Below, in pieces: positions 2,896 through 54,949 of a stretch of 64,000 nt of DNA (positions are counted from its first letter, which is position 1; every line of letters begins with the position of its first letter). The position numbers were made by a program, and so were the translations under genes. This DNA is from Acidovorax sp. (GTDB lineage: Bacteria; Pseudomonadota; Gammaproteobacteria; Burkholderiales; Burkholderiaceae_C): NCBI RefSeq assembly GCF_027492855.1, contig NZ_JAPUDY010000099.1, positions 342,876-406,875 of the forward strand, written 5' to 3'. Under the pieces are notes generated by a model, which had not been told where the DNA came from, did not search any database, and saw only the letters and a list, made by a program, of their open reading frames with translations.

Positions 2896-2948
2896 TTTTT
2901 ATAGCTGCTAGCGCTTTATGAATAAGCGCTAGAGCCATTTTTGATGCC
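2896..2948. repeat. Palindromic repeat family 1, copy a (hslV-hslU spacer)
   Basis: The segment reads ATAGCTGCTAGCGCTTTATG then AATAAGCGCTAGAGCCATTT. The inverted arms are TAGCGCTT and AAGCGCTA around a short loop. It fills most of the spacer between hslV and hslU and ends just before the hslU ribosome-binding site. It could form a hairpin in the hslVU mRNA. Confidence 0.8.
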
Positions 2949-2960
2949 AAAGGGACTGCT

Positions 2961-4262
2961 ATGTCGTCCATGACCCCCCAGGAAATCGTCTCCGAACTCG
3001 ACCACCACATCGTGGGCCAGGCCAGCGCCAAGCGCGCCGTGGCCATTGCGCTGCGCAACCGCTGGCGCCGCCAGCAGGTCGAAGGCAGCCTGCGTCAGGA
3101 GATCACGCCCAAAAACATCCTCATGATCGGTCCCACGGGCGTGGGCAAGACCGAGATCGCGCGGCGCCTGGCGCGCCTGGCCGATGCACCCTTCATCAAG
3201 GTCGAGGCCACCAAGTTCACCGAGGTGGGCTATGTGGGCAAGGATGTGGACGCCATCATCCGCGACCTGGCCGAGATGGCCGTCAAGCAGACGCGCGAGG
3301 CCGAAACAAAAAAGGTGCGCACCCGCGCCGAGGACGCCGCCGAGGAGCGCATCCTGACCGTGCTGGTGGGCAATGCGGTCCCCGACAGCTCCGCACGCCA
3401 GGTGTTCCGCAAGAAGCTGCGCGAAGGCGAGCTGAACGACAAAGAGATCGAGATCGACGTGGCCGAAGCCCGTGCCCCGCTGGAGATCATGGGTCCGCAG
3501 GGCATGGAGGAAATGACCGAGCAGCTGCGCGGCATGTTCAGCCAGATGGGCCAGGACAAGCGCCGCACGCGCAAGCTCAAGATCGCCGAAGCCATGAAGC
3601 TGCTCACCGACGAAGAGGCGGGCAAGCTGGTGAACGAGGAAGAGATCAAGACCCGCGCCATCGCCAATGCCGAGCAGAACGGCATCGTCTTCATCGACGA
3701 GATCGACAAGGTGGCCACGCGCCAGGAGAGCAGCGGCTCCGACGTGTCGCGCCAGGGCGTGCAGCGCGACCTGCTGCCGCTGGTGGAGGGCACCACCGTG
3801 TCCACCAAATACGGCATGATCAAGACGGACCACATCCTGTTCATCGCCTCGGGCGCGTTCCACCTGTCCAAGCCCAGCGACCTCATCCCCGAGCTGCAGG
3901 GGCGCTTTCCGATCCGGGTGGAGCTCGACTCCCTGTCGGTCCAGGATTTCGAGGCCATCCTCACGCAGACCCATGCCTCGCTGGTCAAGCAGTACCAGGC
4001 GCTGCTGGCCACCGAGGGGGTCACCCTGGACTTCCTGCCCGAAGGCATCACGCGCCTGGCGCACATCGCCTTCGAGGTGAATGAGCGCACGGAAAACATC
4101 GGCGCGCGCCGCTTGTCCACCGTCATGGAGCGCCTGCTGGACGAGGTGAGCTTTGATGCCGCACGCCTGTCGGGCCAGACCATCACCGTCGATGCCGCCT
4201 ATGTGAACGCCCGCCTGCAGACCTTGAGCCAGGACGAAGACCTGTCGCGCTACATCCTGTGA
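2961..4262 (+). CDS. hslU: ATP-dependent protease ATPase subunit HslU (ClpY)
   Basis: HslU is the AAA+ unfoldase that feeds substrates into HslV. The 433-residue protein has Walker A GPTGVGKT at 57-64, an intermediate domain (~110-230) and Walker B VFIDE at 243-247. It ends in DLSRYIL, the conserved tail that docks into HslV. The length is close to E. coli HslU (443). The ATG at 2961 follows an AGGGAC at 2949-2954; an in-frame ATG at 2970 is also possible. Co-transcription with hslV is likely despite the repeat in the spacer. Confidence 0.97.
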
Positions 4263-4399
4263 CCACTAGGCCAGGCCTTGAGAGGTCACTTTCATAGGCC
4301 CCTCTAAGTGCTTATTTTTTAACAGCTTTTGGCGCTTTGGCGTCTGCAAAGTCGCGCCTAAGTTGTTGATTTCATTGCAAAACTTTGTGAGACACCCCC

Positions 4400-4427
4400 T
4401 TGCTTGGTGTGCTTTTCCTGCTACAGT
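4400..4427 (+). promoter_or_regulatory. Candidate sigma-70 promoter of the dcw cluster
   Basis: A -35-like TTGCTT (4400-4405) and a -10-like TACAGT (4422-4427) are separated by 16 bp. They lie about 90 bp upstream of the mraZ start, in an AT-richer stretch. The MraZ boxes overlap the -10 and the likely transcription start. No start-site data are available. Confidence 0.45.
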
Positions 4428-4458
4428 GCAAAAAAGTGCAATTAAGTGGTGAAAAGTG
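4425..4458 (+). promoter_or_regulatory. MraZ operator: four AGTG boxes with 10-bp period
   Basis: AGTG occurs at 4425, 4435, 4445 and 4455, each preceded by A-rich sequence (AAAGTGC or TAAGTGG). The spacing is exactly 10 bp, one helical turn, on one face of the DNA. Known MraZ operators are direct repeats with the same 10-bp period: TGGGN in E. coli, AAAGTG-type in Mycoplasma. The array overlaps the proposed -10 element, which suits autorepression of the dcw operon by MraZ. Confidence 0.75.
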
Positions 4459-4515
4459 CCCTCAAGGTCCATTGCACGGATCCGCGAGGCGCAAAACCGA
4501 AGTGGGAATCTGTCC

Positions 4516-4944
4516 GTGTTTCAAGGTGCCTCGTCGCTGAGTCTGGATGCGAAGGGTCGGCTGTCCGTGCCGACCCGGCATCGTGACGTGCTCGCGGCCA
4601 CCGCATCGGGCCAGCTCACCATCACCAAACACCCGCACGGCTGTCTCATGGTGTTCCCCCGCCCCGAGTGGGAGAAGTTCCGCGAGCGCATCGCCCAGTT
4701 GCCCATGTCCGCCCAGTGGTGGAAGCGCATCTTTCTGGGCAACGCCATGGACGTGGAGATGGACGCCACGGGCCGCGTGCTGGTTTCGCCCGAGCTGCGC
4801 GCCGCAGCCGGTATTTCCAAGGACACCATGCTTTTGGGCATGGGCAACCATTTCGAACTCTGGGACAAGGCCACCTACGACGCGCAGGAAGCCGAAGCCA
4901 TGCAGGGCGAGATGCCGGATGTCTTCAAGGACTTCTCCTTCTAA
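4516..4944 (+). CDS. mraZ: Transcriptional regulator MraZ
   Basis: MraZ is a DNA-binding protein with two AbrB-like halves. It binds direct repeats upstream of its own gene and represses the dcw cluster. The two DxxGR signatures are visible: [13 protein letters not shown] near residue 11 and DATGRVLV in the second half. The GTG at 4516 gives 142 residues starting [15 protein letters not shown], matching the family N-terminus. An in-frame start at 4456 would lie inside the operator and add residues with no family counterpart. rsmH begins 8 bp after the stop, as in nearly all dcw clusters. Confidence 0.93.
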
Positions 4945-4952
4945 GGCCCACC

Positions 4953-5882: not shown

Positions 5883-5886
5883 AAGC

Positions 5887-7946: not shown

Positions 7947-9460
7947 CCCAGGCACCGCTCCACATCCTGCAGTCCGCCAACGAGGCCGTGCAATGGCTGC
8001 GCGCGCGTGTCACAGGCACCCTGCACACCGACAGCCGCCAGATCACCCCTGGCGACGGCTTCATCGCCTGGCCCGGCGCGGCCACCGACGGTCGCGCCCA
8101 TGTGGCCGATGCGCTGGTGCGCGGCGCCACCGCCTGCCTGGTGGAGCAGTCCGGCGTGGAGGCATTCGATTTTTCGGGCGAACACCTGGCCGCTTTGCAC
8201 GGCCTCAAAGCTGCCACGGGGCCCATTGCGGCGCAGTGGTTTGGGCAACCCAGCGCACAGCTCGATGTGCTGGCCGTGACCGGCACCAATGGCAAGACCA
8301 GCACCGCGTGGTGGCTGGCCGGCGCCTTGAATTTGCTATCAAATAATGAGCTGTCGGCGCTTGATCAGTGCGCGCTGGTAGGCACTTTGGGTATAGGAGT
8401 CCCCCCCGCGCTGGCATCCACCGGCATGACCACCCCCGACCCGGTGCGCCTGCAGCGCGCGTTCGGCCAGTTTGCCGAGCAGGGGCTCGGCGCCTGCGCC
8501 ATCGAGGCGTCCTCCATCGGCCTGGCCGAGGCGCGGCTCGATGGCACGCAGATCCGCGTGGCCGTCTTCACCAACTTCACGCAGGACCACCTCGACTACC
8601 ACGGCAGCATGGCCGACTACTGGCTGGCCAAGCGTGTGTTGTTCGACTGGCCCGGTTTGCGGGCTGCGGTCATCAATGTGGATGACCCGGTGGGCGCTCA
8701 ATTGCACGCCGAGCTCGCCGACGGGGCGCTGGACCTGTGGAGCGTTTCCGCCCAAGGCGTCGCGCGCCTGGCTGCGCAAGACATCGCTTTGGGCGAGCAG
8801 GGCCTGCGCTTCACGGTGATCGAAGGGGCCGAGCAGCAACTGCTGCAAACGCGCGTGATCGGCCACTACAACGTGCAGAACCTGCTGGGCGTGCTGGCCA
8901 CGCTGCGTAGCCTGGGCGTGCCGCTGGCCGATGCCGTCCGCGCCTGCGCCAGCCTGCAGCCCGTGCCGGGCCGCATGCAGCGGCTGGTAGCAGCGGGCCA
9001 GCCGCTGGTGGCGGTGGACTATGCCCACACCCCCGATGCATTGGAAAAAGCCCTGCAGGCCCTGCGCCCCCTGGCCGCCGAGCGCGGCGGCCAACTGTGG
9101 TGCGTGTTTGGCTGTGGCGGCGACCGCGATGCGGGCAAGCGCCCCCTGATGGGCGCCGTGGCGCAGCAGCAGGCCGACCAGGTGCTGGTGACCAGCGACA
9201 ACCCCCGCAGCGAAGACCCGGCCGCCATCCTGCACCAAATTTTGCAAGGCACGATTGCGGGCGGCACCGTGCGTGCCGAGCCCGACCGCGCTGCCGCCAT
9301 TGCGCAGGCCATTGCCGAGGCCGCACCCGCCGACGTGGTGCTGGTTGCCGGTAAAGGCCATGAAGACACCCAGGAAACGGCGGGCGTGCGCCTGCCGTTC
9401 TCCGACATGGCCCACGCGCGCAGCGCGCTGCAGGCCCGAGGAGCCCACACATGGGCATGA
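7943..9460 (+). CDS. murE: UDP-MurNAc-L-Ala-D-Glu:meso-diaminopimelate ligase MurE
   Basis: MurE adds the third stem-peptide residue to UDP-MurNAc-dipeptide in the cytosol. The 505-residue protein starts at a GTG overlapping the ftsI stop (GTGA). It has the ATP loop TGTNGKT at 113-119. The motif DNPR at 419-422 is the signature of meso-diaminopimelate rather than lysine specificity. Residues ~129-151 are encoded by a copy of palindromic repeat family 1. Where E. coli MurE has a compact strand-turn before MGTVGNG, this protein has NLLSNNELSALDQCALVGTL, about eight residues longer. The insertion lies behind the P-loop helix and leaves the catalytic motifs intact. Confidence 0.97.
   Translation: MTQAPLHILQSANEAVQWLRARVTGTLHTDSRQITPGDGFIAWPGAATDGRAHVADALVRGATACLVEQSGVEAFDFSGEHLAALHGLKAATGPIAAQWFGQPSAQLDVLAVTGTNGKTSTAWWLAGALNLLSNNELSALDQCALVGTLGIGVPPALASTGMTTPDPVRLQRAFGQFAEQGLGACAIEASSIGLAEARLDGTQIRVAVFTNFTQDHLDYHGSMADYWLAKRVLFDWPGLRAAVINVDDPVGAQLHAELADGALDLWSVSAQGVARLAAQDIALGEQGLRFTVIEGAEQQLLQTRVIGHYNVQNLLGVLATLRSLGVPLADAVRACASLQPVPGRMQRLVAAGQPLVAVDYAHTPDALEKALQALRPLAAERGGQLWCVFGCGGDRDAGKRPLMGAVAQQQADQVLVTSDNPRSEDPAAILHQILQGTIAGGTVRAEPDRAAAIAQAIAEAAPADVVLVAGKGHEDTQETAGVRLPFSDMAHARSALQARGAHTWA
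8328..8395. repeat. Palindromic repeat family 1, copy b (inside murE)
   Basis: The element starts with GAATTTGCTATCAAATAATG, followed by AGCTGTCGGCGCTTGATCAG and TGCGCGCTGGTAGGCACTTT. The TGCTATCAAATAA entry is shared with the cobS copy. It is translated in frame as MurE residues ~129-151. Confidence 0.75.
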
Positions 9461-12144: not shown

Positions 12145-14117
12145 ATCCGAACGATCCCTCCGTCCTCCCTGGCGCACCCGGTGCGCCCGACGCCGTGCCT
12201 GACGAGGCCAGCGCGGGTGTGGGCGTGCCCGAGGTGGCCGTGGATGCAGCGGGTGCCGCTGAGCAGCCATCCGAGTCCGCGCCGGTGGCTTCCCCCCCGC
12301 CTGCGGCCGCAGCTTCTGGCACAGCATGGAACCCCGAGGCCGTGCCCGCCGTCTCTGCCGCCAAGGCCGCTGCCGATTTTGTGGCGCAAATTTTTGCGGA
12401 GGTGTCGGCCCCCGAAACGGACGCGGAGCACAGTGCCGTGCAAGCGTCGGATACGGTCACTGACGATGAGCCTGCCGAACCCATCGGCAGCCCGCGCGAG
12501 GCCATGGCGCAACTGCTGCAGGGCCAGAACATCCTCATTCTGGGCCTGGGCGCATCGGGCCTGGCCATGGCGCGCTGGTGCGCACGCTGCGGGGCCGATG
12601 TCACCGTGGCCGACACGCGCACGGCACCGCCCCAACTGTCTGTGCTGCAGCAGGAGCTGCCCCAGGCCCGCTTCGTGGCGGGCGCCTTCGATGCCAGCCT
12701 GGTGGACGGGCAGAACCTGCACGCGGTGTACCGCTCGCCGGGGCTGAGTCCGCAGCAGGTTGCTCCTGTTTTGGACGCGGCTACCGCAAGCGGAATAAGC
12801 GCTGGGGGTGAATTAAGCTTGTATGCAGCGGCGCTGGCCGCGCTGCGCGCATCGCACGCCTATGCGCCTGCGGTGCTGGCCATCACGGGCACCAACGGCA
12901 AGACCACCGTGACCTCGCTCACCGGCCAGTTGGTCGAGCGCTCGGGCAAGCGGGTGGCCGTGGCGGGCAACATCGGCCCGACCCTGCTCGACACGCTGGC
13001 CGCGCACCTGGATGCCGACACCCTGCCCGATGTATGGGTGCTGGAGCTGTCGAGTTTTCAGCTCGACGGCGTGACCGGTTTCGAGCCCACCGCCGCCACG
13101 GTGCTCAACATCACGCAAGACCATCTGGACTGGCATGGCGACATCAACGCCTATGCCGCCGCCAAGGCCCGTATTTTTGGCCAGACGGGCCTGATGATCC
13201 TGAACCGCGAAGACGCGGCGGTGATGGCGATGCTGCCGCCGCCCGGCCGCCCGAAGGCGGCAGCGGCCCCCTCGGGGGGCAGCGCAGCACACGCAGTGGC
13301 AAGCGTGGGGGCTGCCCAGCCTGTGCCGCCGCCCGTCAAAGCCAAGCTGCAAAAGCCGCAGGTGCGCGCGCACCTCACCTTTGGCAGCGACATGCCCCGG
13401 CGCCCCGGTGACTTCGGTATCGAAGTCGTGAGCGGAATGCCCTGGCTGGTGCGCGCCATGGATGCCGACGAAACCCGCAAACGTGGCCGCAACGAGGTTG
13501 AGGAAGACCTGCACATTCAGCGGCTCATTCCGGCCGATGCGCTGCGCATCCGGGGGCGCCACAACGCATCCAACGCACTGGCCGCGCTGGCGCTGGCTGC
13601 CGCAGCGGGCTGCCCCTTGGCACCCATGTTGTACGGCCTGCGCGAATACCGGGGCGAGCCGCACCGTGTGGAGCCCGTGGCCATCATCAACGGCGTGGAG
13701 TATTTCGACGACAGCAAGGGCACCAACGTGGGTGCGACGGTGGCTGCCCTCACCGGACTGGGCGCTGAGCGCCGCCTGGTGGTCATTCTGGGTGGCGAGG
13801 GCAAGGGGCAGGACTTCGCTCCCCTGGCCGCACCGGTGGCGCGCCATGTCCGCGCGGCAGTGCTGATCGGCCGCGACGCGCCGTTGATTCGCGCCGCCCT
13901 GCAGGATGCTGGCGTGGCGCTGCTCGATGCGCCCACGCTGCCCGAGGCGGTGGCGCTGGCCACCGAGCGCGCGCATGCGGGCGATGCGGTGCTGATGTCC
14001 CCTGCCTGCGCCAGCTTCGACATGTTCAAGGACTACGAGCACCGTGCACAGGTGTTCCGTGACACCGTGCATGCGATGGCAGACGACGCGGGCCAACCAA
14101 TGGGGGGCATGGCATGA
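12141..14117 (+). CDS. murD: UDP-MurNAc-L-Ala:D-glutamate ligase MurD, with long N-terminal extension and repeat insertion
   Basis: MurD adds D-glutamate to UDP-MurNAc-L-Ala. The core is clear: [10 protein letters not shown] at ~134-142, ATP loop TGTNGKTT at 249-256, [20 protein letters not shown] and the C-terminal YFDDSKGTN. The protein is 658 residues; E. coli MurD is 438. Two parts explain the excess. Residues 1-125 form an Ala/Pro/Val/Glu-rich, low-complexity extension before the usual start. Residues ~365-391 are encoded by a GC-rich repeat (family 2) in a surface-loop position of the central domain. The ATG at 12141 overlaps the mraY stop, so the long form is the operon-consistent start; no in-frame ATG with a better ribosome site near codon 120 is obvious. 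Confidence 0.93.
13234..13312 (+). repeat. GC-rich repeat family 2, copy A (inside murD)
   Basis: It shares the order of blocks seen in the three gsp copies: CCGCCCGGCCGCCC, then CGGCCCCCTCGGGGGGCAG, then ACGCAGTG and AGCGTGGGGGC. The CCCCCTCGGGGGG centre is a near-perfect palindrome. It is translated in frame as MurD residues ~365-391 ([20 protein letters not shown]). Confidence 0.8.
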
Positions 14118-15382: not shown

Positions 15383-16446
15383 CGCAGAAAACCGCATTGA
15401 TCATGGCGGGTGGCACTGGCGGCCATATTTTCCCGGGCCTCGCCGTGGCGCAGGAGTTGCGCGCACGCGGCTGGCGCGTGCATTGGCTGGGCGCGCCGGG
15501 CAGCATGGAGTCGCGCATCGTGCCCACACACGGTTTTGCGCTGGAGCTGATCGATTTTTCGGGCGTGCGCGGCAAGGGCCTGCTCACGCTGGCCCTGCTG
15601 CCGCTGCGCCTGTTGCGTGCCTTCTGGCAAGCCTTGCAGGTGGTGCGGCGCGTCAAGCCCGACGTGGTGGTGGGCCTGGGCGGCTACATCACCTTTCCGG
15701 GCGGCATGATGGGCGTGCTGGCGGGCAAACCGCTGGTGCTGCACGAACAGAACTCGGTGGCTGGCATGGCCAACAAGGTGCTGGCGGGTGTGGCTGACCG
15801 GGTGTTCACGGCCTTCCCCAACGTGCTCAAAAAGGGCCAGTGGGTGGGCAACCCGCTGCGCACCGCGTTCACGCAACAGGCCGGGCCCGCCGAGCGGTTT
15901 GCCGGGCGCACCGGCCCGCTGAACCTGCTGGTGGTGGGTGGCAGCCTGGGTGCACGTGCGCTCAACGAGATCGTGCCGCAGGCCGTTGCGCTGATGCCCG
16001 CCGGGCAACGGCCCACCGTGGTCCACCAAAGCGGCGCAGCGCAGATCGACGCCTTGCGCGCCAACTACGCGGCCGCCGGGGTCGATGCCGAGCTCACCCC
16101 TTTCATCGACGACACCGCCAGCGCGTTCGCAGCGGCCGACATCATCGTCTGCCGCGCGGGCGCCAGCACCGTGACCGAAATCGCCGCTGTGGGGGCCGCG
16201 TCCATCTTTGTTCCTTTCCCGTCGGCGGTGGACGACCACCAGACCACCAACGCCCAGTTCCTGGTGGATGCCGGGGGCGGTTGGCTGGTGCAGCAACGCG
16301 ACCTGACGCCCGAGGGGTTGTCACAAATGCTATTGAATATGGAGCGCTCCACGCTGGTGGATAAAGCGCTGAAGGCCAAAAACATGCAAAAAATCAACGC
16401 CACCCGCGAGGTGGTGACTGCCTGCGAGGAGTTGGCCCAGCCATGA
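15379..16446 (+). CDS. murG: UDP-GlcNAc:lipid I GlcNAc transferase MurG
   Basis: MurG adds GlcNAc to lipid I to make lipid II at the inner face of the membrane. The 355-residue GT28 protein has the N-terminal [14 protein letters not shown] loop, the second G-loop [13 protein letters not shown], and [22 protein letters not shown] binding UDP-GlcNAc (described here by its parts). Residues ~316-338 near the C-terminus are encoded by palindromic repeat family 1. That region is variable in the family, so activity need not be affected. It overlaps ftsW and murC by 4 bp each. Confidence 0.96.
16325..16390. repeat. Palindromic repeat family 1, copy c (inside murG)
   Basis: It reads AAATGCTATTGAATATGGAG, then CGCTCCACGCTGGTGGATAA and AGCGCTGAAGGCCAAAAACA. 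The TGCTATT entry, AAGCGCTGAAGGCC arm and A-rich exit match other family copies. It is more divergent than copies e, h or i. It encodes MurG residues ~316-338. Confidence 0.65.
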
Positions 16447-17876
16447 AACACGCCATTCGCCACATCCATTTCGTCGGCCTGGGCGGCGCTGGCATGAGCG
16501 GCATCGCCGAGGTGCTGTTCAACCTGGGCTACCGCATCTCGGGCTCCGATCTGTCCGACAGCGTCACGCTGCGCCGCCTGCAGGGCCTGGGCATCCACAC
16601 CTGTCTGGGCCATGCGGCAGCGCACATCGATGGCGCCGACGCCGTGGTCACCTCTACCGCCGTCACGGCCGACAACCCCGAGGTGCTGGCCGCCCGCGCC
16701 AAAAAAATCCCCGTGGTGCCGCGTGCGCTCATGCTGGCTGAGTTGATGCGCCTGAAGCAGGGCATTGCCATTGCGGGCACCCACGGCAAGACCACCACCA
16801 CCAGCCTGGTGACCAGCGTGCTGGCCGAGGCCGGGCTGGACCCGACCTTCGTGATCGGCGGCAAGCTCAACAGCGCGGGCGCCAATGCCAAGCTGGGCAG
16901 TGGCGACTACATCGTGGTCGAAGCCGACGAGTCCGATGCCTCGTTTTTGAACCTGCTGCCCGTGATGGCCGTGGTGACCAACATCGACGCCGACCACATG
17001 GAGACCTACGGCCACGACTTCGGCCGGCTCAAGGGCGCGTTTGTCGATTTCCTGCACCGCATGCCGTTCTACGGCACGGCCGTTTTGTGCGTGGACAGCC
17101 CAGCCGTGCGCGACATCCTGCAGAGCGTGACCTGTCCCATCACCAGCTACGGTTTTTCGGAAGACGCCCAAGTGCGCGCCGTGAACGTGCGCCCCGATGC
17201 AGGGCAGATGCGCTTTACGGTGCAGCGGCGCAACGGCGTCACCCTGCCCGACTTGGACATCGTGCTCAACCTCGCGGGCGAACACAACGTGCTCAACGCA
17301 CTGTCGGCGATTGCCGTGGCGGTGGAACTCAATATCCCTGACGAGGCCGTGCAGCGTGCGCTGGCGGGCTTCAAGGGCGTGGGCCGACGCTTCCAGCGCT
17401 ATGGCGACCTGCCCGCCAAAGGTGGCGGTACGTTCACCGTCATCGACGACTACGGCCACCACCCCGTGGAGATGGCCGCCACGCTGGCGGCCGCGCGCGG
17501 CGCCTTTCCGGGCCGCCGCCTGGTGCTGGCCTTCCAGCCCCACCGCTACAGCCGCACGCGCGATTGTTTCGAGGATTTCGTCAAGGTCATCGGCAACGCC
17601 GACGCGGTGCTGCTGACCGAGGTGTACGCAGCAGGCGAGGCGCCCGTGGTTGCAGCCGACGGCCGCTCGCTGGCCCGCGCCTTGCGTGTGGCGGGCCGGG
17701 TGGAGCCTGTGTTCGTCGATGCCGTGGCTGATTTGCCGCAGGTCATTGCCGACAACGCGCGCAACGGCGACGTGGTGATGTGCATGGGCGCGGGCTCCAT
17801 TGGCGCCGTGCCGGGCAAGGTGGTTGAAATGCTACAAAATAGTGAGCTTAAGGCGCTTGAAGGGAGCGCGCAATGA
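16443..17876 (+). CDS. murC: UDP-N-acetylmuramate:L-alanine ligase MurC
   Basis: MurC adds L-Ala to UDP-MurNAc, the first stem-peptide residue. The 477-residue protein has the Rossmann motif [12 protein letters not shown] near the start, the ATP loop [18 protein letters not shown] and [11 protein letters not shown], and the C-terminal-domain DDYGHHPVE and FQPHRYSRT motifs. The last 16 residues ([16 protein letters not shown]) are encoded by palindromic repeat family 1, which continues across the stop into ddl. Confidence 0.96.
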
Positions 17877-17893
17877 CCATTTTTGATTCAAAT
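17826..17893. repeat. Palindromic repeat family 1, copy d (spans murC-ddl junction)
   Basis: It reads AATGCTACAAAATAGTGAGC, TTAAGGCGCTTGAAGGGAGC, GCGCAATGACCATTTTTGAT. It starts 50 bp before the murC stop and ends within codon 7 of ddl. It therefore contains the murC stop, the ATGA overlap and the ddl start codon. Confidence 0.7.
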
Positions 17894-18862
17894 ATTGATG
17901 TGAAATCGCTGGGCAAGGTGGCCGTGCTCATGGGCGGCGCCTCGGCCGAGCGCGAGGTGTCGCTGATGTCTGGCAGCGGTGTGCTGCAGGCTCTGCGCGC
18001 GCGCGGCGTGGATGCACATGCATTCGACCCCGCCCAAAGCGACCTGAGTGATCTCAAGCGCGACGGCTACGCCCGCTGTTTTATCGCGCTGCATGGCCGC
18101 CATGGCGAAGACGGCACGGTGCAGGGCGCGCTGGAGTTGCTGGGCATCCCATACACCGGCCCCGGCGTGATGGCATCGAGCATCGCCATGGACAAGATCA
18201 TGACCAAGCGCATCTGGCGCTTCGAAGGCCTGTCCACCCCCGACTGGCGCCTGGTCTCCAGCGCGCAGGAGACTGTGCAGGCCCTGGAGGCGCTGGGTGC
18301 GCCCATGATCGTGAAGCCATCGCGCGAGGGCTCCACCATCGGCCTCACCAAGGTCACCTCGGCCGCGCAGTGCGAGCAGGCCTATCTGCTGGCGTCGAAG
18401 TACGACCCTGAAGTGTTGTGCGAGCAGTTCATCGAGGGCGACGAGACCACCTGCCCGGTGCTGGGCGAAGGCGCGGGCGCCCATGCGCTGCCCGTGATTC
18501 GCATCGTGGCGCCCGAGGGCAACTACGACTACCAGAACAAATACTTCACCGACGTGACGCAGTACCACTGCCCCAGTGGCCTGCCCGAAGCCGAGGAGCG
18601 CGAGATTCAGCGCCTGGTGGTGCAGGCGTTCCGCGCGCTGGGCTGCCGGGGCTGGGGGCGTGCCGACATCATGATCCGCGCGAGCGACCGCCAGCCTTTC
18701 CTGCTGGAGATCAACACCTCGCCGGGCATGACGGGCCACTCGCTCGTACCCATGTCGGCGCGGGCCTCGGGCATTAGCTACGAAGACCTGTGTGTGGGCG
18801 TGCTGGGCACGGCCACGCTGGACACGCCGCCAGGCGCCACCCTAGGAGCCGCCAGCGCATGA
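17873..18862 (+). CDS. ddlB: D-alanine:D-alanine ligase
   Basis: It makes the D-Ala-D-Ala dipeptide that MurF uses. The 329-residue ATP-grasp protein has the N-terminal [17 protein letters not shown], the [12 protein letters not shown] motif, [25 protein letters not shown] and the C-terminal [15 protein letters not shown] metal/substrate motif. The first seven residues (MTIFDSN) come from palindromic repeat family 1. The start overlaps the murC stop (ATGA), and the stop overlaps ftsQ. Confidence 0.96.
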
Positions 18863-28021: not shown

Positions 28022-29671
28022 ATGAATGCTCTCGGCCGCTTCTCCATCCGTACACGACTCTACTTTGGTACCGTCTTTTCCCTGATTCTTTTGATCGTTA
28101 TCGGAGCCATGGGTTATGTGGCCCTGGACCGCACGCGCGGCACGCTGCAGGTGCTGTTTTCCGAGCGGGTGCAGACGCTGACCGACATGTCCGACCTGCG
28201 CACCACGCTGGGCGACCTGCGCCGGGTCGAAAAGGACATCATCATCAATTTCAACAACACGGTAGAGGTTTCCGCACTGCGCGAAACCTGGGCCAAAACC
28301 CTGGCGGCGCTGCGCAAGAGCCTGGCCGATGTGCGCCAGGTGCAGTCGGACGAGCCCGCTTTTGTCGATTCCATCGACAAGTCGCTGGCCGAGATCAAGC
28401 TGTATGAAACCGGTATCGTCCCCATCTTTGCGCAGATCGAGCAGGCGCAACTCGACGGCGCGGGCGGCGGCGCCTATGCCAACCGCCTCAAGGTCCACAT
28501 GGACGCCACCGACCAACTGTTCTCCAGCCTGGCTGCGTCGGCCCGTGCGCAGATGGACGAGGCTCGCGCGGGTGTGGAGCTGCGCACCTCCACCATGTCG
28601 GCGCTTATCGGCATCGGACTGGTGTTGGGGCTGGCGGTGCTGATTCCGCTCACCTTCTTCAGCGTGCGCTCCATCACCAAATCCCTGGGGCAGGCCCAGG
28701 AACTGGCCGAGCGCATTGCCAGCGGCGACCTGTCGCACGACGTGGCTCCCATGAACCAGGACGAGGTGGGCCAACTGGTGTCGGCCATGGGCCGCATGCA
28801 GGACTCGTTGCGTGGCCTGGTGCGCCAGGTGCAGGACGCGGCGGGCAACATCTCCACCGCCAGCTCCGAGATCGCCAGCGGCAACCATGACCTGAGCCAC
28901 CGCACCGAGCAGACGGCGGCCAACCTCGAAGAAACTGCCTCATCGATGGAGGTGCTGACCAGCACGGTGCAGCAAAGCGCACAGTCCTCGCGCCAGGCCA
29001 GCGACTTCGCTTCGTCGGCCGCCGAAGTGGCGGCGCGCGGCGGCGCCGTGGTGTCGCAGGTGGTGACCACCATGGACCAGATCACCACCAGCTCACGCAA
29101 GATCGCCGACATCACGGGTGTGATCGACTCCATCGCCTTCCAGACCAACATCCTCGCGCTCAACGCCGCTGTGGAGGCCGCGCGGGCCGGTGAGCAGGGC
29201 CGGGGTTTTGCCGTGGTGGCCAGCGAGGTGCGCAACCTCGCGCAGCGCAGCGCCGAGGCCGCCAAAGAGATCAAGGGCTTGATCGGTTCGTCGGTGGAGC
29301 GGGTGGAAGACGGCTCGCGCCTGGTGAGCCAGGCGGGCCAGACCATGACCGAGATCGTGAGCAGCGTGCGCCGCGTGTCCGACATCATTGGCGAAATCAC
29401 CGCCTCGTCGGCCGAGCAGAGTGACAACATTGGCCAGATCAGCCAGTCGGTGTCGCAACTCGACCAGATGACACAGCAGAACGCCGCGTTGGTGGAGCAG
29501 TCCACCGCCGCGTCCGAATCGCTCAGGGAGCAGGCGCACCAACTGACCGGCGCTGTCAGCCAGTTCAAGCTGCAGGAGGGCGCATTCTCGGCCGCTGGTG
29601 TGTCAGCGCCTGCTGCGCCAGCCGTGGTCTCTGCGGCACGCCGGCCTGCGTTGCAGATTCCGGTAGGTTGA
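28022..29671 (+). CDS. Methyl-accepting chemotaxis protein with four-helix-bundle sensor
   Basis: A 549-residue chemoreceptor. Membrane helices are at ~11-34 and ~191-213. The periplasmic part between them is all-helical, as in Tar-type four-helix-bundle sensors. A HAMP domain (~214-266) and a signalling domain follow, with the tip [20 protein letters not shown]. It lacks the CheR/CheB pentapeptide seen in the other receptor of this window and ends PALQIPVG. The 185-bp region upstream holds a short GGC tract (27902-27918) and no convincing flagellar sigma promoter. Confidence 0.94.
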
Positions 29672-29680
29672 TGGTGTTTT

Positions 29681-29717
29681 TAGCTGCTAGCGCTTATTGA
29701 ATAAGCGCTAGCAGCTA
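29681..29717. repeat. Palindromic repeat family 1, copy e (also likely bidirectional terminator)
   Basis: Perfect 17-bp arms TAGCTGCTAGCGCTTAT and ATAAGCGCTAGCAGCTA flank a 3-nt loop. T-rich sequence precedes it and A-rich sequence follows, so it can end transcription from both the chemoreceptor gene (rightward) and gspE (leftward). This is the most symmetric copy in the window. Confidence 0.85.
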
Positions 29718-29734
29718 TTAAAAATATAGCGACT

Positions 29735-38710: not shown

Positions 38711-38790
38711 GTCGCAGCGCCGGGCCGCCCCAAGCAAGGCCCGGCCCCCTTGGGGGGCAGGGAGCGACACGCAGTGCGCGACCGTGGGGG
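38711..38790 (+). repeat. GC-rich repeat family 2, copy C (gspG-gspH spacer)
   Basis: It contains GCGCCGGGCCGCCCCAAGCA, CGGCCCCCTTGGGGGGCAGG and GAGCGACACGCAGTGCGCGA, ending ACCGTGGGGG. It is the first of two tandem copies in the 228-bp spacer. Confidence 0.85.
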
Positions 38791-38795
38791 CACGG

Positions 38796-38877
38796 TTTCG
38801 CCGCCGGGCCGCCCCAAGGCGAAACGCGGCCCCCTCGGGGGGCAGGGAGCGACACGCAGTGCGCGACCGTGGGGGCC
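38796..38877 (+). repeat. GC-rich repeat family 2, copy D (gspG-gspH spacer)
   Basis: It repeats copy C almost exactly: CGCCGCCGGGCCGCCCCAAG, GCGAAACGCGGCCCCCTCGG, GGGGCAGGGAGCGACACGCA, GTGCGCGACCGTGGGGGC. Its 3' half (GGGGGGCAGGGAGCGACACG onward) is identical to copy C. Confidence 0.88.
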
Positions 38878-39888: not shown

Positions 39889-40467
39889 TCAGCCCAGATC
39901 CCGAATTTCCCATTCCCCCCAGCCCGGCGCCGCCACGGGCCAGTCTTCCGAGCGGGGCATCACGCCCTCGCCATGCAATTGCAGCCAGGCCACACAGCGC
40001 GCCACGCCTGCATGGGTGATCCACACCACGTCTTGGCCGCCGCTGTCCACTTGGCGAGCGGCCGCCAGCGCCGATGCAACGCGCGCCAGCATCGCCGCCA
40101 GGCTTTCGCCTCCGCCGGGCGCGTGGGTGGCAAAGGCGGCCGTCCAGGCGTCGATGTCGCGTTTTGCGATGGTGCTCCAGACCCGGCCTTCCCACGCGCC
40201 GAAATCCATTTCGCGCAGGCGAGGGTCAGGGTTTGGTGCCAAATCAGGCCTTAGCGCTTGCAGGGATTGCGCTAACTGCTCACATCTTTGTAGCGTTGAG
40301 GTGTGCAGCGACGCGCCATGTGGCAAGGCATCGGCCAGTGCGCGGGCGGCCAGCGCAGTTGCCGTGGGGTCGGCGGGCATGTCCAGCGACCCGTAGCAGG
40401 TGCCCGGTGCCACTTGGGGGGCGGCGTGGCGCACCAGCCACAGGCGGGTGCCGAGGTGGGAGGTCAT
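39889..40467 (-). CDS. Histidine phosphatase family protein, probable alpha-ribazole phosphatase
   Basis: A phosphoglycerate-mutase-like phosphatase of 192 residues. It has the catalytic-histidine motif LVRHA (11-15; RHA instead of RHG), EMDFGAWEGR, and the second histidine in VWITHAGVAR. The ATG overlaps the cobS stop (ATGA). This suggests a CobC-type role: removing the phosphate from adenosylcobalamin-5'-phosphate or alpha-ribazole phosphate. Residues ~58-77 are encoded by palindromic repeat family 1. The larger open frame upstream of this start overlaps cobS and is not used. Confidence 0.82.
   Translation of the reverse strand: MTSHLGTRLWLVRHAAPQVAPGTCYGSLDMPADPTATALAARALADALPHGASLHTSTLQRCEQLAQSLQALRPDLAPNPDPRLREMDFGAWEGRVWSTIAKRDIDAWTAAFATHAPGGGESLAAMLARVASALAAARQVDSGGQDVVWITHAGVARCVAWLQLHGEGVMPRSEDWPVAAPGWGEWEIRDLG
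40239..40296. repeat. Palindromic repeat family 1, copy g (inside the phosphatase gene)
   Basis: On the minus strand it reads AACGCTACAAAGATGTGAGC, AGTTAGCGCAATCCCTGCAA, GCGCTAAGGCCTGATTTGG. The GCTACAAA entry, paired TAGCGC/GCGCTA arms and AAGGCC exit are those of the family. It encodes residues ~58-77 of the phosphatase. Confidence 0.75.
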
Positions 40468-41273
40468 GTTGCCCAGCGCAGGCTCAGCGCGGCCCCCAGG
40501 TAAAAACCGATCTCGCTGACCTGCTGCGTGGCGCCCAGGCAGTCGCCCGTGAAGCCCTGCAATCGGCGTGCAAACCAGCGCGCCATCCAGGCAGCGGCGA
40601 GTCCACTCACAGTGATGGATGCTATCAAATAAATAGCTGATAGCGCATATCCAACAAGCGCTAGCGGCAAAAAACACCATAAACCTGCTGCCACCAGGGC
40701 GTGGCCGGCAATCTGGTCGGCCAGTGGCTTGCTTTTGGAGCGCGCCGTGTCGCCCACATGCGGCAGGCTGCGCACGATAAGGAGGGGCCAAAAACGCGAC
40801 AGCACATGCGCGCCCACCAGGGCCGCAAGAGCGGCCTGCAGGCTGTGCGTGCCCAGCAGCGCCAGCAGGCTCAGCTTGGCAAGCAGGGCCAGCACCAGCG
40901 CCATGGCGCCATAGGCGCCGATGCGCGAGTCCTTCATGATGTCGAGCGCGCGCTCGCGGTCGGCGCTGCCGCCCAGGCCATCGGCCACGTCGGCCAGGCC
41001 GTCTTCGTGAAAGCCACCCGTCATCAACACGGTGGCGATGGTGCTCAACACGGCCGCGACGGCGGGTGCCAGCGGGTTGGGCGCCAGCGCCAGGGATAGC
41101 CCCGCATAGACACCCACAGCCAGCAGGCCTGCCAGCCAGCCGATGCCGGGGAAATGCGCGGCGCTGGCGCGCAGCATGGCCGGACTGAAACCCACCCAGG
41201 CCGCCAGCCGCCCGGTGACGGGGATGCGGGTGAAGAACTGCACGGCCAGCAGGTAGTGGCGCAGGGCTTGCAT
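40464..41273 (-). CDS. cobS: Adenosylcobinamide-GDP ribazoletransferase CobS
   Basis: CobS joins adenosylcobinamide-GDP to alpha-ribazole (phosphate) in the last steps of cobalamin synthesis, in the inner membrane. The 269-residue protein has about seven hydrophobic segments and the signatures FHEDGLADVADGLGG (88-102) and MKDSRIGAYG (113-122). Residues ~199-219 (WCFLPLALVGYALSAIYLIA), which look like a membrane helix, are encoded by a nearly intact copy of palindromic repeat family 1. No other cob genes are in the window. Confidence 0.94.
   Translation of the reverse strand: MQALRHYLLAVQFFTRIPVTGRLAAWVGFSPAMLRASAAHFPGIGWLAGLLAVGVYAGLSLALAPNPLAPAVAAVLSTIATVLMTGGFHEDGLADVADGLGGSADRERALDIMKDSRIGAYGAMALVLALLAKLSLLALLGTHSLQAALAALVGAHVLSRFWPLLIVRSLPHVGDTARSKSKPLADQIAGHALVAAGLWCFLPLALVGYALSAIYLIASITVSGLAAAWMARWFARRLQGFTGDCLGATQQVSEIGFYLGAALSLRWAT
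40618..40680. repeat. Palindromic repeat family 1, copy h (inside cobS)
   Basis: It reads GATGCTATCAAATAAATAGC, TGATAGCGCATATCCAACAA, GCGCTAGCGGCAAAAAACAC. It is an almost complete family member read on the strand opposite to cobS coding sense. It supplies CobS residues ~199-219. Confidence 0.85.
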
Positions 41274-41288: not shown

Positions 41289-41352
41289 TTTGCTTCTAAT
41301 TTGATAGCTGCTTGCGCTTATTGATCAAGCGCTAGCGGCCATTTTTGTCATG
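41289..41352. repeat. Palindromic repeat family 1, copy i (cobS-ilvA spacer)
   Basis: It reads TTTGCTTCTAATTTGATAGC, TGCTTGCGCTTATTGATCAA, GCGCTAGCGGCCATTTTTGT. The inverted arms are GCGCTT and AAGCGC. The ilvA stop codon (41348-41350) lies in its outer end. It fills the 74-bp spacer between ilvA and cobS. Confidence 0.88.
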
Positions 41353-42919
41353 AAGATTGCTTGGCGCGCAGAAACAGCCGGTAGGCCGGGTTCTGCGTTT
41401 CTTCTACGCAGGGGTAGCCCAGCGTGGACAGGAAGGTGTCGAAGGCGGCCGTGTCGCCGGGCGGCACTTGCATGCCCACGAGAATGCGGCCGTAGTCCGC
41501 ACCCTGGTTGCGGTAGTGAAAGAGCGAAATGTTCCAGTTGGGCTGCATCAGGCTCAAAAACTTGAGCAGCGCGCCGGGGCGCTCGGGGAAGGTGAAGCGC
41601 ATCAGGCGCTCGTCCTGTGCCAGGGCCGAGTGGCCGCCCACCAGGTGGCGCAGGTGCTCCTTGGCCATCTCGTCGTGGGTGAGGTCCAGTGTCTCGAAGC
41701 CATGGCGGCCGAAGTTCTTGGCGATTTTTTCCGATTCGCCCCGGCCATTGGTCGTGAGGCCTACGAACACGTGGGCCTGGGTGGAGTCGCTGATGCGGTA
41801 GTTGAACTCGGTCACGTTGCGCGCGCCGCCGGGCAGGCTGCCCACTACCTCGCAAAAACGGCGGAAGCTGCCGCGCTCCTCGGGGATGGTGACGGCGAAC
41901 AGGGCTTCGCGCTCCTCGCCCACCTCGGCGCGCTCGGCCACGAAGCGCAGGCGGTCGAAGTTCATGTTGGCGCCGCACAGAATGGCGGCGTAGGTCTCGC
42001 CCTTGGTCTTCTTCGCGGCCACGTACTGCTTGATGGCGGCCACGGCCAGCGCGCCTGCGGGCTCGACGATGCTGCGCGTGTCCACGAATATGTCTTTGAT
42101 GGCGGCGCAGACGGCGTCGGTATCGACGGTGATGAATTCATCCACCAGGCCCTGGGCCACGCGGAAGGTTTCCTCGCCCACGAGCTTCACGGCCGTGCCG
42201 TCGGAGAACAGGCCCACGTCGGGCAGCGTGACGCGCTGGTGCGCGTTGACGGACTGGATCATGGCGTCCGAGTCATTCATCTGCACACCAATCACCTTGA
42301 TCTCGGGCCGCACGGCCTTGATGTAGTTGGCCACGCCCGACACCAGGCCACCGCCGCCAATCGCCACGAACACCGCATCGAGCTGGTTGCTGCCCAGGCT
42401 TTGCAACTGGCGCAGGATCTCCATGGCGATGGTGCCCTGGCCCGCGATGACCAGGGGGTCGTCGAAGGGGTGTACGAAGGTCAGGCCCTGCTCTTTTTCG
42501 AGCGTCACCGAGTGGCCGTAGGCGTCGGAATAGCTATCGCCAAACAGCACCACCTCGCCGCCCAGCGTCTTGACCGCGTCAATTTTGAGCTGTGGCGTGG
42601 TGGTCGGCATGACGATGACGGCGCGCGTGCCCAGCTTGTGGGCGCTCATCGCCACGCCCTGGGCGTGGTTGCCGGCCGAGGCGCAGATCACGCCGCGCGC
42701 AAGCTGCTCAGGCGTGAGGTGCGCCATCTTGTTGTAGGCGCCGCGCAACTTGAAGCTGAACACGGGCTGCTGGTCCTCGCGCTTCAGGAGCACCTTGTTG
42801 TGCAGGCGGCGGCTGAGGTTCTTGGCAGGCTCCAGCGCCGACTCGACGGCCACGTCGTAGACGCGGGCGGTCAGGATTTTCTTCAGGTAGTCGGCGGGGG
42901 TGAGGAGGTGCTGGGTCAT
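41348..42919 (-). CDS. ilvA: Threonine ammonia-lyase, biosynthetic (IlvA)
   Basis: IlvA converts threonine to 2-oxobutanoate, the first step to isoleucine, and is normally inhibited by isoleucine. The 523-residue protein has the PLP lysine at Lys57 (FSFKLRGAYN), the SAGNHAQGVA loop and the GGGGLVSG phosphate-binding loop. Two C-terminal ACT-like regulatory domains (~340-515) start at LFAVTIPEERGSFRRF and LMRFTFPERPGALLKF. The ATG at 42919 gives the family N-terminus MTQHLLTPADYL. An upstream GTG (42961) is possible but adds unrelated residues. The 363 bp upstream hold a hairpin terminator and a candidate leader, listed separately. Confidence 0.96.
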   Translation of the reverse strand: MTQHLLTPADYLKKILTARVYDVAVESALEPAKNLSRRLHNKVLLKREDQQPVFSFKLRGAYNKMAHLTPEQLARGVICASAGNHAQGVAMSAHKLGTRAVIVMPTTTPQLKIDAVKTLGGEVVLFGDSYSDAYGHSVTLEKEQGLTFVHPFDDPLVIAGQGTIAMEILRQLQSLGSNQLDAVFVAIGGGGLVSGVANYIKAVRPEIKVIGVQMNDSDAMIQSVNAHQRVTLPDVGLFSDGTAVKLVGEETFRVAQGLVDEFITVDTDAVCAAIKDIFVDTRSIVEPAGALAVAAIKQYVAAKKTKGETYAAILCGANMNFDRLRFVAERAEVGEEREALFAVTIPEERGSFRRFCEVVGSLPGGARNVTEFNYRISDSTQAHVFVGLTTNGRGESEKIAKNFGRHGFETLDLTHDEMAKEHLRHLVGGHSALAQDERLMRFTFPERPGALLKFLSLMQPNWNISLFHYRNQGADYGRILVGMQVPPGDTAAFDTFLSTLGYPCVEETQNPAYRLFLRAKQSS

Positions 42920-50087: not shown

Positions 50088-50168
50088 AGGCATTTTTCGC
50101 ACAACGCCAAACCCATCCCCCTGGATGACCATCCATTTCGCCCCCCTTTTCACTACGAGGAGATTTCC

Positions 50169-51749: not shown

Positions 51750-51815
51750 GCAAGAAAGTCCGTACGTAGATTGCAGAGAAAAAAAGAGAACGACCGGTTC
51801 TTTTGAAAGTTCGCG

Positions 51816-51849
51816 CCACCGCTGGGCCGCTATCCGGGCCTTGCGGTGG
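51816..51849 (+). promoter_or_regulatory. Intercistronic hairpin between second binding protein and permease
   Basis: CCACCGC-TG-GGCC and GGGCC-TT-GCGGTGG form a stable stem with a small internal bulge. No clean T run follows, so it is more likely an mRNA-stability hairpin protecting the binding-protein message than a full terminator. Confidence 0.5.
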
Positions 51850-51872
51850 TGTTTGTTTACTGGTTTCCCACA

Positions 51873-52784: not shown

Positions 52785-52805
52785 ATCCGAAGAAGTGACG
52801 ACCCC

Positions 52806-53804
52806 ATGAGCCTCCTAGAAGTCAAAAACCTCGTTGTCGAATTTCCGGGCCGCCGCGGCACCCTGCGCGCCCTGGACGACATTTCCTTTTCTATTGCACC
52901 CGGCGAGATCCTGGGCGTGGTGGGAGAGTCCGGCGCCGGTAAATCGCTCACCGGCGCGGCCATCATTGGCCTGCTGGAGCCACCGGGCCGCGTCGCCTCG
53001 GGCCAGATCCTGCTGGAAGGCCAGCGCATCGACAACCTCGGCAACGAGGAAATGCGCCACATCCGCGGCCGCCGCATCGGTGCGATTTTTCAAGACCCGC
53101 TGACCTCGCTGAACCCGCTGTACACCGTGGGTCGCCAACTCACCGAGACCATCCTGGCCCACTTGCCGGTCAACGCCGCAGAGGCGCGCCAGCGCGCCAT
53201 CCAACTCCTCAAGGACACCGGTATCCCGGCGGCCGAGGAGCGCATCGACCACTACCCGCACCAGTTCTCCGGCGGCATGCGCCAGCGTGTGGTGATCGCC
53301 CTGGCCCTGGCGGCTGAGCCCAAGCTCATCGTGGCCGATGAGCCCACCACGGCGCTCGATGTGTCCATCCAGGCGCAGATCATCACGCTGCTCAAAAACA
53401 TCTGCAAATCGCGCGGCGCCGCCGTGATGCTGATCACCCATGACATGGGCGTGATCGCCGAAACCTGTGACCGCGTGGCCGTGTTGTACGCCGGGCGCGT
53501 GGCCGAGATCGGCCCTGTGCACGACGTGATCAACAAGCCGTCGCACCCCTACACCAGCGGCCTCATGGCCTCCATCCCCGACATGGAGCAGGACAGAGAG
53601 CGCCTGAACCAGATCGACGGAGCCATGCCCCGCCTGAACGCCATTCCCAAGGGCTGCGCCTACAACCCGCGCTGCCCCAAAACCTTTGACCGTTGCATGA
53701 CCGACCGCCCTGAACTGATGCCCGCAGGCTCCACCCGTGCCGCCTGCTGGCTGCATGCCGGTGCATCGGCTGCCTCCTCCACAAAAGCCGGGGTGGCCGC
53801 ATGA
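52806..53804 (+). CDS. Dipeptide-type ABC transporter ATPase (DppD-like)
   Basis: A 332-residue ABC ATPase. Walker A GESGAGKS is at 40-47, then the signature FSGGMRQRV and Walker [13 protein letters not shown]. The oligopeptide-transporter C-terminal extension is present, with [15 protein letters not shown] and a later Cys; in relatives these bind an Fe-S cluster. It overlaps the next ATPase gene (ATGA). Confidence 0.96.
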
Positions 53805-54829
53805 GCACCGCAGCCACTACCTCCGCACCCGTGAAGAGCAAAGCCCTGGTGCAGGCGCACGACCTGGCCAAGACCTTCGACGTCTCTGCCCCCTGGCTCA
53901 ACCGCGTGATCGAACGCAAGCCCCGCACCCTGCTGCACGCGGTGGACGGTGTGAGTTTTGAGATCGAAAAAGGCAAGACCCTGGCCCTGGTGGGCGAATC
54001 CGGCTGTGGCAAAAGCACCGTGGCTCGTTTGCTGGTGGGCCTGTACGAGCCCACGCGCGGCGGCCTCACGTTTGATAACCAGGATGCGCATGCCGCCTTC
54101 AAGGGCAATGATGCGCAGGCCATGCGCCGCCGCATCCAGATGATTTTTCAGGACCCATACGCCAGCCTGAACCCACGCTGGCTGGTCGAGGACATCATTG
54201 GCGAGCCGCTCAAGGAGCATGGCCTCATCACCGACAAGGCTGAGCTCAAGCAACGCGTGGGCGAACTGCTCCAGTCCGTGGGCCTGTCCCCGCTCGACAT
54301 GGTGAAGTACCCGCACCAGTTCTCCGGCGGCCAGCGCCAGCGCATCTCCATCGCCCGCGCCCTGGCCACTGAGCCCGAGTTCCTGGTCTGCGACGAGCCC
54401 ACCTCGGCACTCGACGTGTCGGTGCAGGCCCAGGTGCTCAACATCATGAAGGACCTGCAGCGCGAGCGCCAGCTCACCTACCTGTTCATCAGCCACAACC
54501 TCGCCGTGGTGCGCCACGTGAGCGACCAGGTCGGCGTGATGTACCTGGGCCGCCTGGTGGAACTGGCCGACAAACACACGCTGTTCGACACCCCGCGCCA
54601 CCCCTACACGCGCATGCTGCTCGATGCCATCCCCAAGATGCACGACACCGGCAAGGCGCGCACCCCCGTGCAGGGCGAGGTGCCCAACCCGCTGAACCCG
54701 CCGCCCGGCTGCGCCTTCAACCCCCGCTGCCCGCATGTGAACGACCGCTGCCGCACCGAGCGGCCCCAGCTCAAGAGCATCGGCGGCATCCGCATTGCGT
54801 GCCATGCGGTGGAAGAGGGCCGGATTTGA
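53801..54829 (+). CDS. Dipeptide-type ABC transporter ATPase (DppF-like)
   Basis: The 342-residue partner ATPase. Walker A GESGCGKS is at 65-72, the signature is FSGGQRQRI and Walker B is [12 protein letters not shown]. The C-terminal Cys-rich segment [15 protein letters not shown] is also present. It ends the operon, and a strong terminator follows within 25 bp. Confidence 0.96.
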
Positions 54830-54854
54830 GCCTGCGCGGGTTGTGACCCACGAG

Positions 54855-54888
54855 CAATGGGCGCCAGACAGGGCGCCCATTGTTTTTT
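54855..54888 (+). terminator. Rho-independent terminator of the peptide ABC operon
   Basis: CAATGGGCGC and GCGCCCATTG pair around an 8-nt loop and are followed by six T. Confidence 0.93.
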
Positions 54889-54890
54889 AT

Positions 54891-54949
54891 ACTCCTGAAT
54901 TGATAGCGGATTGCGCTTGTCCAGTAAGCGCTCAAGGCCAAAAACGATT
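54891..54949. repeat. Palindromic repeat family 1, copy j (intergenic)
   Basis: It reads ACTCCTGAATTGATAGCGGA, TTGCGCTTGTCCAGTAAGCG, CTCAAGGCCAAAAACGATT. It lies directly after the terminator of the peptide ABC operon and abuts the MITE-like element. Confidence 0.8.

Follow-up and report, generated by a model that had tools for sequence, protein, structure and literature searches.

The DNA analyzed here, a window of 64,000 nucleotides from an Acidovorax genome assembly (4.64 Mb, 110 contigs), is part of contig C99 (406,875 bp) and carries eleven copies of one repeat with a palindromic core. MraY of this genome shares 99% identity with loci of A. radicis and A. delafieldii. As an earlier note on this sequence had described, the copies form a single family that lies both between and inside genes, essential dcw genes being among the hosts, and the coding copies have open reading frames. 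The family is best read not as a mobile insert but as a recognition signal that is spread over the genome and measures ~60 to 67 bp. It is very probable that recognition of a specific sequence maintains these sites and that substitution is their main mode of evolution. If such recognition is at work, there is about an even chance that the reader is DNA uptake. The whole explanation favoured here, a long uptake-type signal that would be read by the natural-transformation machinery, falls slightly short of an even chance.

Repeat copies between and inside genes

A first matrix was built from five window copies (41291, 2888, 40620, 29676 and 54890), 29676 being entered on both strands. These training copies score 74.6, 72.1, 69.7 (in cobS), 66.9 and 63.3, respectively. 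They are followed by the copies in gspD (33324, minus strand, 48.8), murG (16328, 29.0), murD (12761, 25.7) and murE (8334, 22.8), and the lowest ones are found in the phosphatase gene (40240, minus strand, 13.3) and in murC/ddl (17830, 12.4). In 20 dinucleotide-Markov sequences, the top random match reaches -3.3 to 10.7 per sequence, which the two lowest copies barely exceed. All ten copies of the earlier list are present and lie above these 20 shuffled controls. The murD copy had been missed in that list, and the description of the element was corrected to the 67-position consensus TTGCTATnAAATTnATAGCTGCTAGCGCTTnTTnAACAAGCGCTAGnGGCCATTTTnATTnAAAA, which has a palindromic core.

The second matrix has 67 positions and rests on 46 strict copies, taken from the contig and from 15 loci. 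It yields 61 matches scoring at least 0 on the 406,875-bp contig, and none in six third-order Markov sequences or in the reversed contig sequence. With this matrix all eleven window copies score 20 to 87, the copies in murE, murC/ddl, murD and the phosphatase gene being the weak members. Host genes were identified by profile (murE, murD, murG, murC, ddl, hslU, hslV, gspD, cobS and histidine phosphatase). The copies are listed below with their strand and score, and with the z value of the synonymous-shuffle test described further on.

2887..2953, plus strand: intergenic copy in the hslV-hslU gap; score 81
8333..8399, plus strand: weak copy in murE, in a length-variable loop; score 31, z 6.1
12760..12826, plus strand: weak copy in murD; score 20, z 6.1
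16327..16393, plus strand: copy in the 3' part of murG; score 36, z 4.5
17829..17895, plus strand: copy that overlaps the 3' end of murC and the 5' end of ddl; score 31, shuffle test void (cut at gene end)
29666..29732, minus strand: nearly symmetrical intergenic copy between convergent genes; score 81
33314..33380, minus strand: copy at the start of gspD (residues 11-33, N-terminal region); score 70, z 6.2
40230..40296, minus strand: copy in the histidine-phosphatase gene; score 28, equal length in species G529 and G521
40619..40685, plus strand: copy antisense in cobS; score 75, z 9.6
41290..41356, plus strand: intergenic copy upstream of cobS and downstream of the next gene; score 87
54889..54955, plus strand: intergenic copy; score 61

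The region of GspD encoded at the copy is presumably its signal peptide. On the whole contig, 58 matches score at least 14 (407 kb), from which ~660 copies per genome can be extrapolated. The strict core, AGCGCTT-N7-AAGCGCT, is present 141 times in the genome and not once in the genome read backwards, a strong over-representation of the kind expected of DNA uptake signals. In viral contigs, 30 stretches match a 16-base core pattern, a raw count that implies neither excess nor lack. Phages gave no match to one strong copy, and two plasmid records contain a partial match to another.

For the most part, the coding copies are probably not insertions. The comparison of orthologous places covered ten further Acidovorax species, over 408 kb in two of them and over 66-75 kb in the remaining eight; these places are mostly element-like yet different in sequence. 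Of the 22 coding sites 21 were comparable, and 14 of these have equal length in every relative compared. Three species with 0 or 1 strict copies each (G529, G521 and G493, the last comparable for GspD only) served as a reference that is free, or nearly free, of the family. They show no match scoring at least 20 in 72-73 kb; the ten other species have 7 to 14 in 66-79 kb. No gap is present at the site in their MurD, MurG, GspD, histidine phosphatase and CobS (5/6 window genes), and the view of the coding copies as inserted elements like the Rickettsia palindromic elements (RPEs), taken in the earlier note, is not supported. Compared with G529 and G521, the residues of the site are kept at 15/23 positions in MurD, 14-15/23 in the phosphatase and 11/23 in MurG, and the GspD site keeps 15/23 compared with G493.

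Codon usage differs as well: in the species free or nearly free of the family, the third codon positions of the site have a GC content of 0.70-1.00, versus 0.30-0.70 in the genes studied here, whose overall value is 0.68-0.88. Other bearing species show 0.26-0.70, with three exceptions at 0.74-0.83 (MurD in G511 and G523, MurE in G502), in which the site itself is not element-like. At the phosphatase site, for instance, G529 reads LQRCVQLAQAVQATRPD versus LQRCEQLAQSLQALRPD here, where CTA, AGA, TGT and TTA codons are used. Judged from these alignments, the codons of this genome, plus some to many residues, appear to be bent towards the repeat, compared with the GC-rich codons of the relatives.

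In the synonymous-shuffle test, the codons of 21 coding matches were redrawn by genome usage, 400 draws each. The observed score was reached by 0/400 draws at 19 of the 21 matches (z 4.5 to 9.6); at the other two (C99 307329 and murC/ddl) the gene ends within the tested stretch, which makes the test void. Six of the 19 tested sites belonged to the training set of the matrix, and the 13 remaining ones, which include murE, murD, murG, gspD and cobS, also give z 4.5 to 9.6. Chance likeness is thus ruled out at the tested sites.

Other features were noticed in the window. An inverted repeat around CCGTTCGGGCTGAGCCTGTCGAAG is located at 54975-55100, and a sequence similar to it lies next to the G522 orthologue of the 41290 copy. 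Another repeat family, rich in GC (about CCCCAAGGCG..GGCCCCCTCGGGGGGCAG), has four copies, at 13250-13313, 37784-37847, 38728-38791 and 38813-38876, one of which is inside murD. Rfam matches are a Betaproteobacteria toxic small RNA (RF02278, 43031-43092, minus strand, 67.5 bits) and a thiamine pyrophosphate (TPP) riboswitch (RF00059, 25693-25816, plus strand, 59.4 bits).

Dialects and age of the sites

The letters of the core differ between species at the same orthologous sites, coding as well as intergenic. Two forms can be distinguished, dialect A (GCGCTT-7-AAGCGC) and dialect B (GCGCAT-5-ACnAGCGC). G495 and G507 read ATAGCTnnnAGCGCATATTCCACTAGCGC at sites where this genome reads ATAGCTGCTAGCGCTTATTCATCAAGCGC. 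The A/B counts, from patterns that differ in stringency, are 141/2 in this genome, 18/77 in G495, 5/73 in G530, 18/51 in G534 and 15/48 in G507, with mixed counts in G512 (50/19) and G506 (106/12). Each of the remaining 41 of 47 Acidovorax genomes has between 0 and 5 occurrences of the B pattern, and several genomes are low in both patterns, e.g., G499, G504, G509, G513, G519 and G533. Simple decay was considered as the cause of the low strict counts in G495 and G507 and was rejected, as both carry the other dialect. The copy that precedes hslU in the dcw loci belongs to dialect A in A. facilis and is dialect-B-like in A. delafieldii. The type strains from which these two loci come are presumably the strains of the transformation study discussed below. 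Syntenic regions of G501 and G505 (L173-L176 and L195-L198), each with only 11 copies, hint at one more dialect, whose right arm reads CGCGCG.

This change is directional. Between the contig and G495 or G507, the diagnostic columns differ with Fisher p values of 8e-4 to 8e-10. At column 29, T is replaced by A at orthologous sites in a ratio of 8:0 (coding) and 10:0 (intergenic) in G495, and of 9:0 in both classes in G507, the reverse change never being observed; T is retained in 3 to 8 sites per class. Inside elements, GCGCTT has become GCGCAT in 7/30 and 7/28 cases, against 1/174 and 1/171 outside, a comparison that leaves out cases where GCGC itself changed. The rarity of this change outside the elements indicates that no general mutation bias is responsible. 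Orthologous copies share 72% identity and non-orthologous ones 53% (32 pairs). Orthologous copies remain alike while their letters shift one way, a pattern that neither insertion or decay nor wholesale gene conversion would easily produce. The copies have thus been inherited in place, with single letters pulled in one direction in coding and intergenic sites.

The sites keep their place across Acidovorax species and some of them across genera. The hslV-hslU site (2887) is element-like in 10/10 relatives and also in G511 and G523, two distant, copy-rich species; it is absent from G529 and G521, where this gap (within L256-L263) is occupied by a different GC-rich hairpin of similar length. Seven of the ten comparable window sites score above 20 in G511 and G523, the MurE site being weak. 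The 29666 copy was not found at the orthologous place in G511, G523, G529 or G521, and for the 54889 copy, no comparable orthologous place was found in most relatives. The murD site, weak in the window, is strong in other species (57 in G333, 49 in G498 and 46 in G502).

A wider sample consisted of 80 Comamonadaceae loci around MraY. A shuffle z of at least 3 is reached at the MurG site in 32/68, at the MurD site in 20/79 and at the MurE site in 16/74 loci, including loci named Polaromonas, Rhodoferax, Curvibacter, Ramlibacter, Simplicispira and Ottowia. The absolute scores at the MurD and MurE sites are often low or negative in these loci. In a more distant Burkholderiaceae metagenome-assembled genome (L096), a near-perfect core is present within MurD, with no residue added. 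Taken across these genomes, the sites are old, and not all of them are universal.

Possible readers of the signal

Placement was determined on the contig, with simple open reading frame calls to which murE, murD and phosphatase were added by hand. Although 86% of the contig is coding, 32 of the 58 copies are intergenic, 22 lie within genes and 4 partly so. Within genes, 14 copies are in sense and 8 in antisense orientation, and the presence of both speaks for DNA rather than RNA as the recognized form. The intergenic copies scoring at least 25 (31 in number) are located in convergent gaps (11) or codirectional gaps (20, of which 15 in sense). The spacing along the contig is random; no regularity was found. 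The matches are enriched in shared DNA, with 55 in 332 one-kb bins that have a relative versus 3 in 74 bins without one. In G502, 20 consecutive copies have the same orientation (contig C1, 2407970-2973485), among the first ~100 of 199 matches listed.

The hairpin itself was also considered as the conserved property. The big stem gives a weak signal (82.8% of cells paired versus 81.1% when shuffled, 3/500), pairing in the small one is below that of the shuffles, and dialect B disrupts the two innermost stem pairs. Given this weak pairing signal and these breaks, it is the sequence that seems to be conserved and not the hairpin.

Spread by a RAYT-like transposase acting in trans, which the earlier note had put forward, is not supported either. 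The genome has one Y1/RAYT-like gene, and its 3.3-kb locus contains no copy of the core within 3 mismatches, nor do the inverted repeats around the gene resemble the element. Y1 was found in 44/47 Acidovorax genomes, including all five without a strict copy, and in 187/250 genomes of the bacterial family. Conversely, G515 (90% complete) carries 181 copies and no Y1 was found in it. Among the 26 family genomes with at least 5 strict copies, 23 are among the Y1 matches listed; G341, G385 and G440 are not. With a locus free of copies and a presence unrelated to copy number, this gene was rejected as the driver. The 37 Y1_Tnp matches of G536, most with the same score, are an IS200-like expansion.

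Over-representation, origin mainly by substitution, fixed positions, dialects and the bias towards shared DNA together resemble DNA uptake signals. A sequence-specific reader would act on DNA in either orientation and would keep drawing sites to its preferred sequence wherever the protein tolerates the changes. This reader could be the DNA-uptake machinery of natural transformation, i.e., the type IV pilus. Uptake and recombination would then favour fragments that carry a good signal, and good signals would displace weaker alleles by molecular drive. Dialects would then follow changes of the reader, and species in which it has been lost or altered would be without the family. Uptake signal sequences (USS) arise by substitution and not by insertion, which was settled by a similar gap test (PMC1626085); molecular drive by uptake has been argued (PMC1939737), and dialects of the DNA uptake sequence (DUS) have been shown (PMC3630211). 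Within the genus, A. temperans and A. facilis are reported to be naturally transformable. In A. temperans only DNA of its own species was effective, whereas DNA of A. facilis, A. defluvii and A. delafieldii did not transform it, and selective DNA binding is described for Verminephrobacter eiseniae (PMC4212676). The passages of that study on Acidovorax and Verminephrobacter transformation name no signal.

Several findings weigh against this reading. The motif is far longer than known uptake signals and has a palindromic core. Own-species transformation could also reflect a lack of the sequence identity required for recombination. ComEC is present in 44/47 Acidovorax genomes (absent from G494, G496 and G509), including five of the six with 0-1 strict copies, and therefore does not explain where the family is missing. 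In the copy-rich G511 and G523, the MurD and 29666 sites are not element-like. The absence of intergenic copies from divergent gaps (0/31, where such gaps make up 27/159 of those of at least 60 bases) fits a terminator-like role. Most site residues differ from those of G529 and G521 in GspD (7-8/23 kept) and CobS (8/23 kept).

Lengths differ as well in some Acidovorax relative at 7 of the 21 coding sites. In an acyl-CoA dehydrogenase, two relatives are 9 nt shorter. The differences amount to 14 and 5 nt at C99 69463, to 3 nt at C99 212657 (two relatives), and to 4 nt at C99 308998 and 6 nt in gspD (one relative each). The 1 nt seen in two relatives at the phosphatase probably reflects an alignment edge, and the 263 nt in one relative at murG probably result from mispaired flanks. 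The MurE loop is 2 residues shorter in G529 and 6 in G521. In three further hosts, distant homologues from the PDB lack residues in and beside the site: 8 and 11 in DapF, 8 in the acyl-CoA dehydrogenase, and 4 or 0 in the CCA-adding enzyme, depending on the homologue. At the intergenic 41290 place, ~58 nt are missing in G529 and G521. The whole element would occupy 22 codons, and no insert of this size was seen in a gene at the compared coding sites; with gaps this small, loops may have grown at some of them. The intergenic copies give a less clear picture on insertion than the coding ones.

The strongest rival of the uptake signal is a binding site for an intracellular protein, such as a chromosome organizer or a replication, recombination or termination factor, with hundreds of sites under ordinary selection and dialects that track the protein. 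This is possible, if on the doubtful side. Conserved positions, bent codons, dialects and both orientations would follow from it, and the intergenic copies at 3' ends and the one-orientation run among the listed G502 matches would be in agreement with it. However, selection would have to be strong enough to alter the codons of hundreds of sites and to move all of these in concert, the idea comes without a candidate protein, and the copies are randomly spaced along the contig and patchy between related species.

Old insertions like those of repetitive extragenic palindromic (REP) sequences or RPEs, which would have become fixed in an ancestor and since then have decayed or been recruited as segments of the protein, are improbable. 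The family is palindromic and mostly intergenic, its orthologous copies are inherited in place, and the ~58 nt at 41290 and the small length gains in MurE, DapF, acyl-CoA dehydrogenase and the CCA enzyme would be such traces. Against this stand the gap-free site in 5/6 window genes, the concerted change of dialect, the missing link to a RAYT and the AT-rich codons, which were retained despite the bias of the genome.

Overwriting by gene conversion, in which the element, as a single strand, pairs with places of partial similarity, replaces them and homogenizes the family, is very improbable. Equal length, half copies and dialects could all be accounted for in this way, whereas the higher identity of orthologous copies, kept while the dialect letters changed, and the largely kept residues of MurD and phosphatase are not expected. 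There is hardly any chance that the copies are transcription terminators that share a sequence, with the coding copies as by-products. The empty divergent gaps, the T run that many copies have after a hairpin, and the other GC-rich hairpin of G529 and G521 at the 2887 place would suit terminators, but 22/58 copies lie in genes, 8 of them antisense, the pairing constraint is weak and dialect B breaks two inner pairs.

The idea that the coding copies are chance likenesses or codon bias, to which some weak sites (phosphatase, murC/ddl, murD) lend themselves, is practically negligible in view of the control sequences without a match and the 0/400 shuffles at 19 sites. The earlier note had equated shared residues in repeat-free orthologues with chance; the residues are indeed largely shared in MurD and the phosphatase, and not in GspD and CobS, and a verdict of chance fails on the shuffles.

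Comparison with known systems

The family shares with the REP/REPIN-RAYT system short palindromic sequences in many, mostly intergenic, copies. Unlike in that system, 22/58 Acidovorax copies are inside genes, mostly at unchanged protein length, no RAYT is linked to them, and dialect B loses the two innermost stem pairs. RPEs are palindromic sequences within open frames, which keep the frame and add residues to the protein. The palindrome within open frames is common to both, but most Acidovorax sites add no residues. HIP1 of cyanobacteria is likewise an over-represented palindrome; it is only 8 bp long with a proposed tie to methyltransferases (PMC4390886), whereas the Acidovorax motif is long and has dialects.

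Two repeat families are known from closer relatives. BRE of Betaproteobacteria is a repeat family of the same class, some members of which lie within coding sequence; it is ~90 bp long, has 69% GC, is partly tandem and reaches at most 29 copies per genome (PMC3110155). VeiPR1 is a repeat from the same family of bacteria and is called unique to V. eiseniae (PMC3975124). Both are set apart from the Acidovorax family by their description only. Literature searches on sequence strings, on Comamonadaceae or Acidovorax repeats and on uptake in Verminephrobacter or Betaproteobacteria gave no description in which the motif was recognized, few papers being examined closely, and a search combining Comamonadaceae with DNA uptake sequence found nothing. 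In the main text of two surveys of palindromic repeats (PMC3733652 and PMC12306157), a term search did not find the queried genus names.

The closest likeness is with the DUS of Neisseriaceae and the USS of Pasteurellaceae. Like these, the Acidovorax signal has many copies in and between genes and is depleted in genes, appears to be formed mainly by substitution in existing codons and differs in dialect between related species, and own-species transformation has been reported in the genus. It is unlike them in its length of ~60-67 bp with a palindromic core, versus a core of 9-11 bp, and in the placement of its intergenic copies at 3' ends. The family behaves like an uptake signal, with about even odds of being one. 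We regard it as tentative, somewhat below an even chance, that Comamonadaceae possess a third family of DNA uptake signals, 60-67 bp long, with dialects that separate species genetically. Through transmission drive, and not for the benefit of the host genes, such a signal would have altered codons in genes for the cell wall, secretion and metabolism.

Sequence-selective uptake is called well established in Neisseriaceae and Pasteurellaceae (PMC4212676), and the present family would, if this is true, be a third case. A longer signal with a gradient of dialects within one genus would allow testing the joint change of signal and reader, and the isolation of species by dialect. It would also show how far a selfish sequence preference can reshape essential proteins, and could account for the own-species-only transformation of A. 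temperans. Even with another reader protein, it would be unexpected for letters to change in concert at so many fixed coding sites, and this is directly testable.

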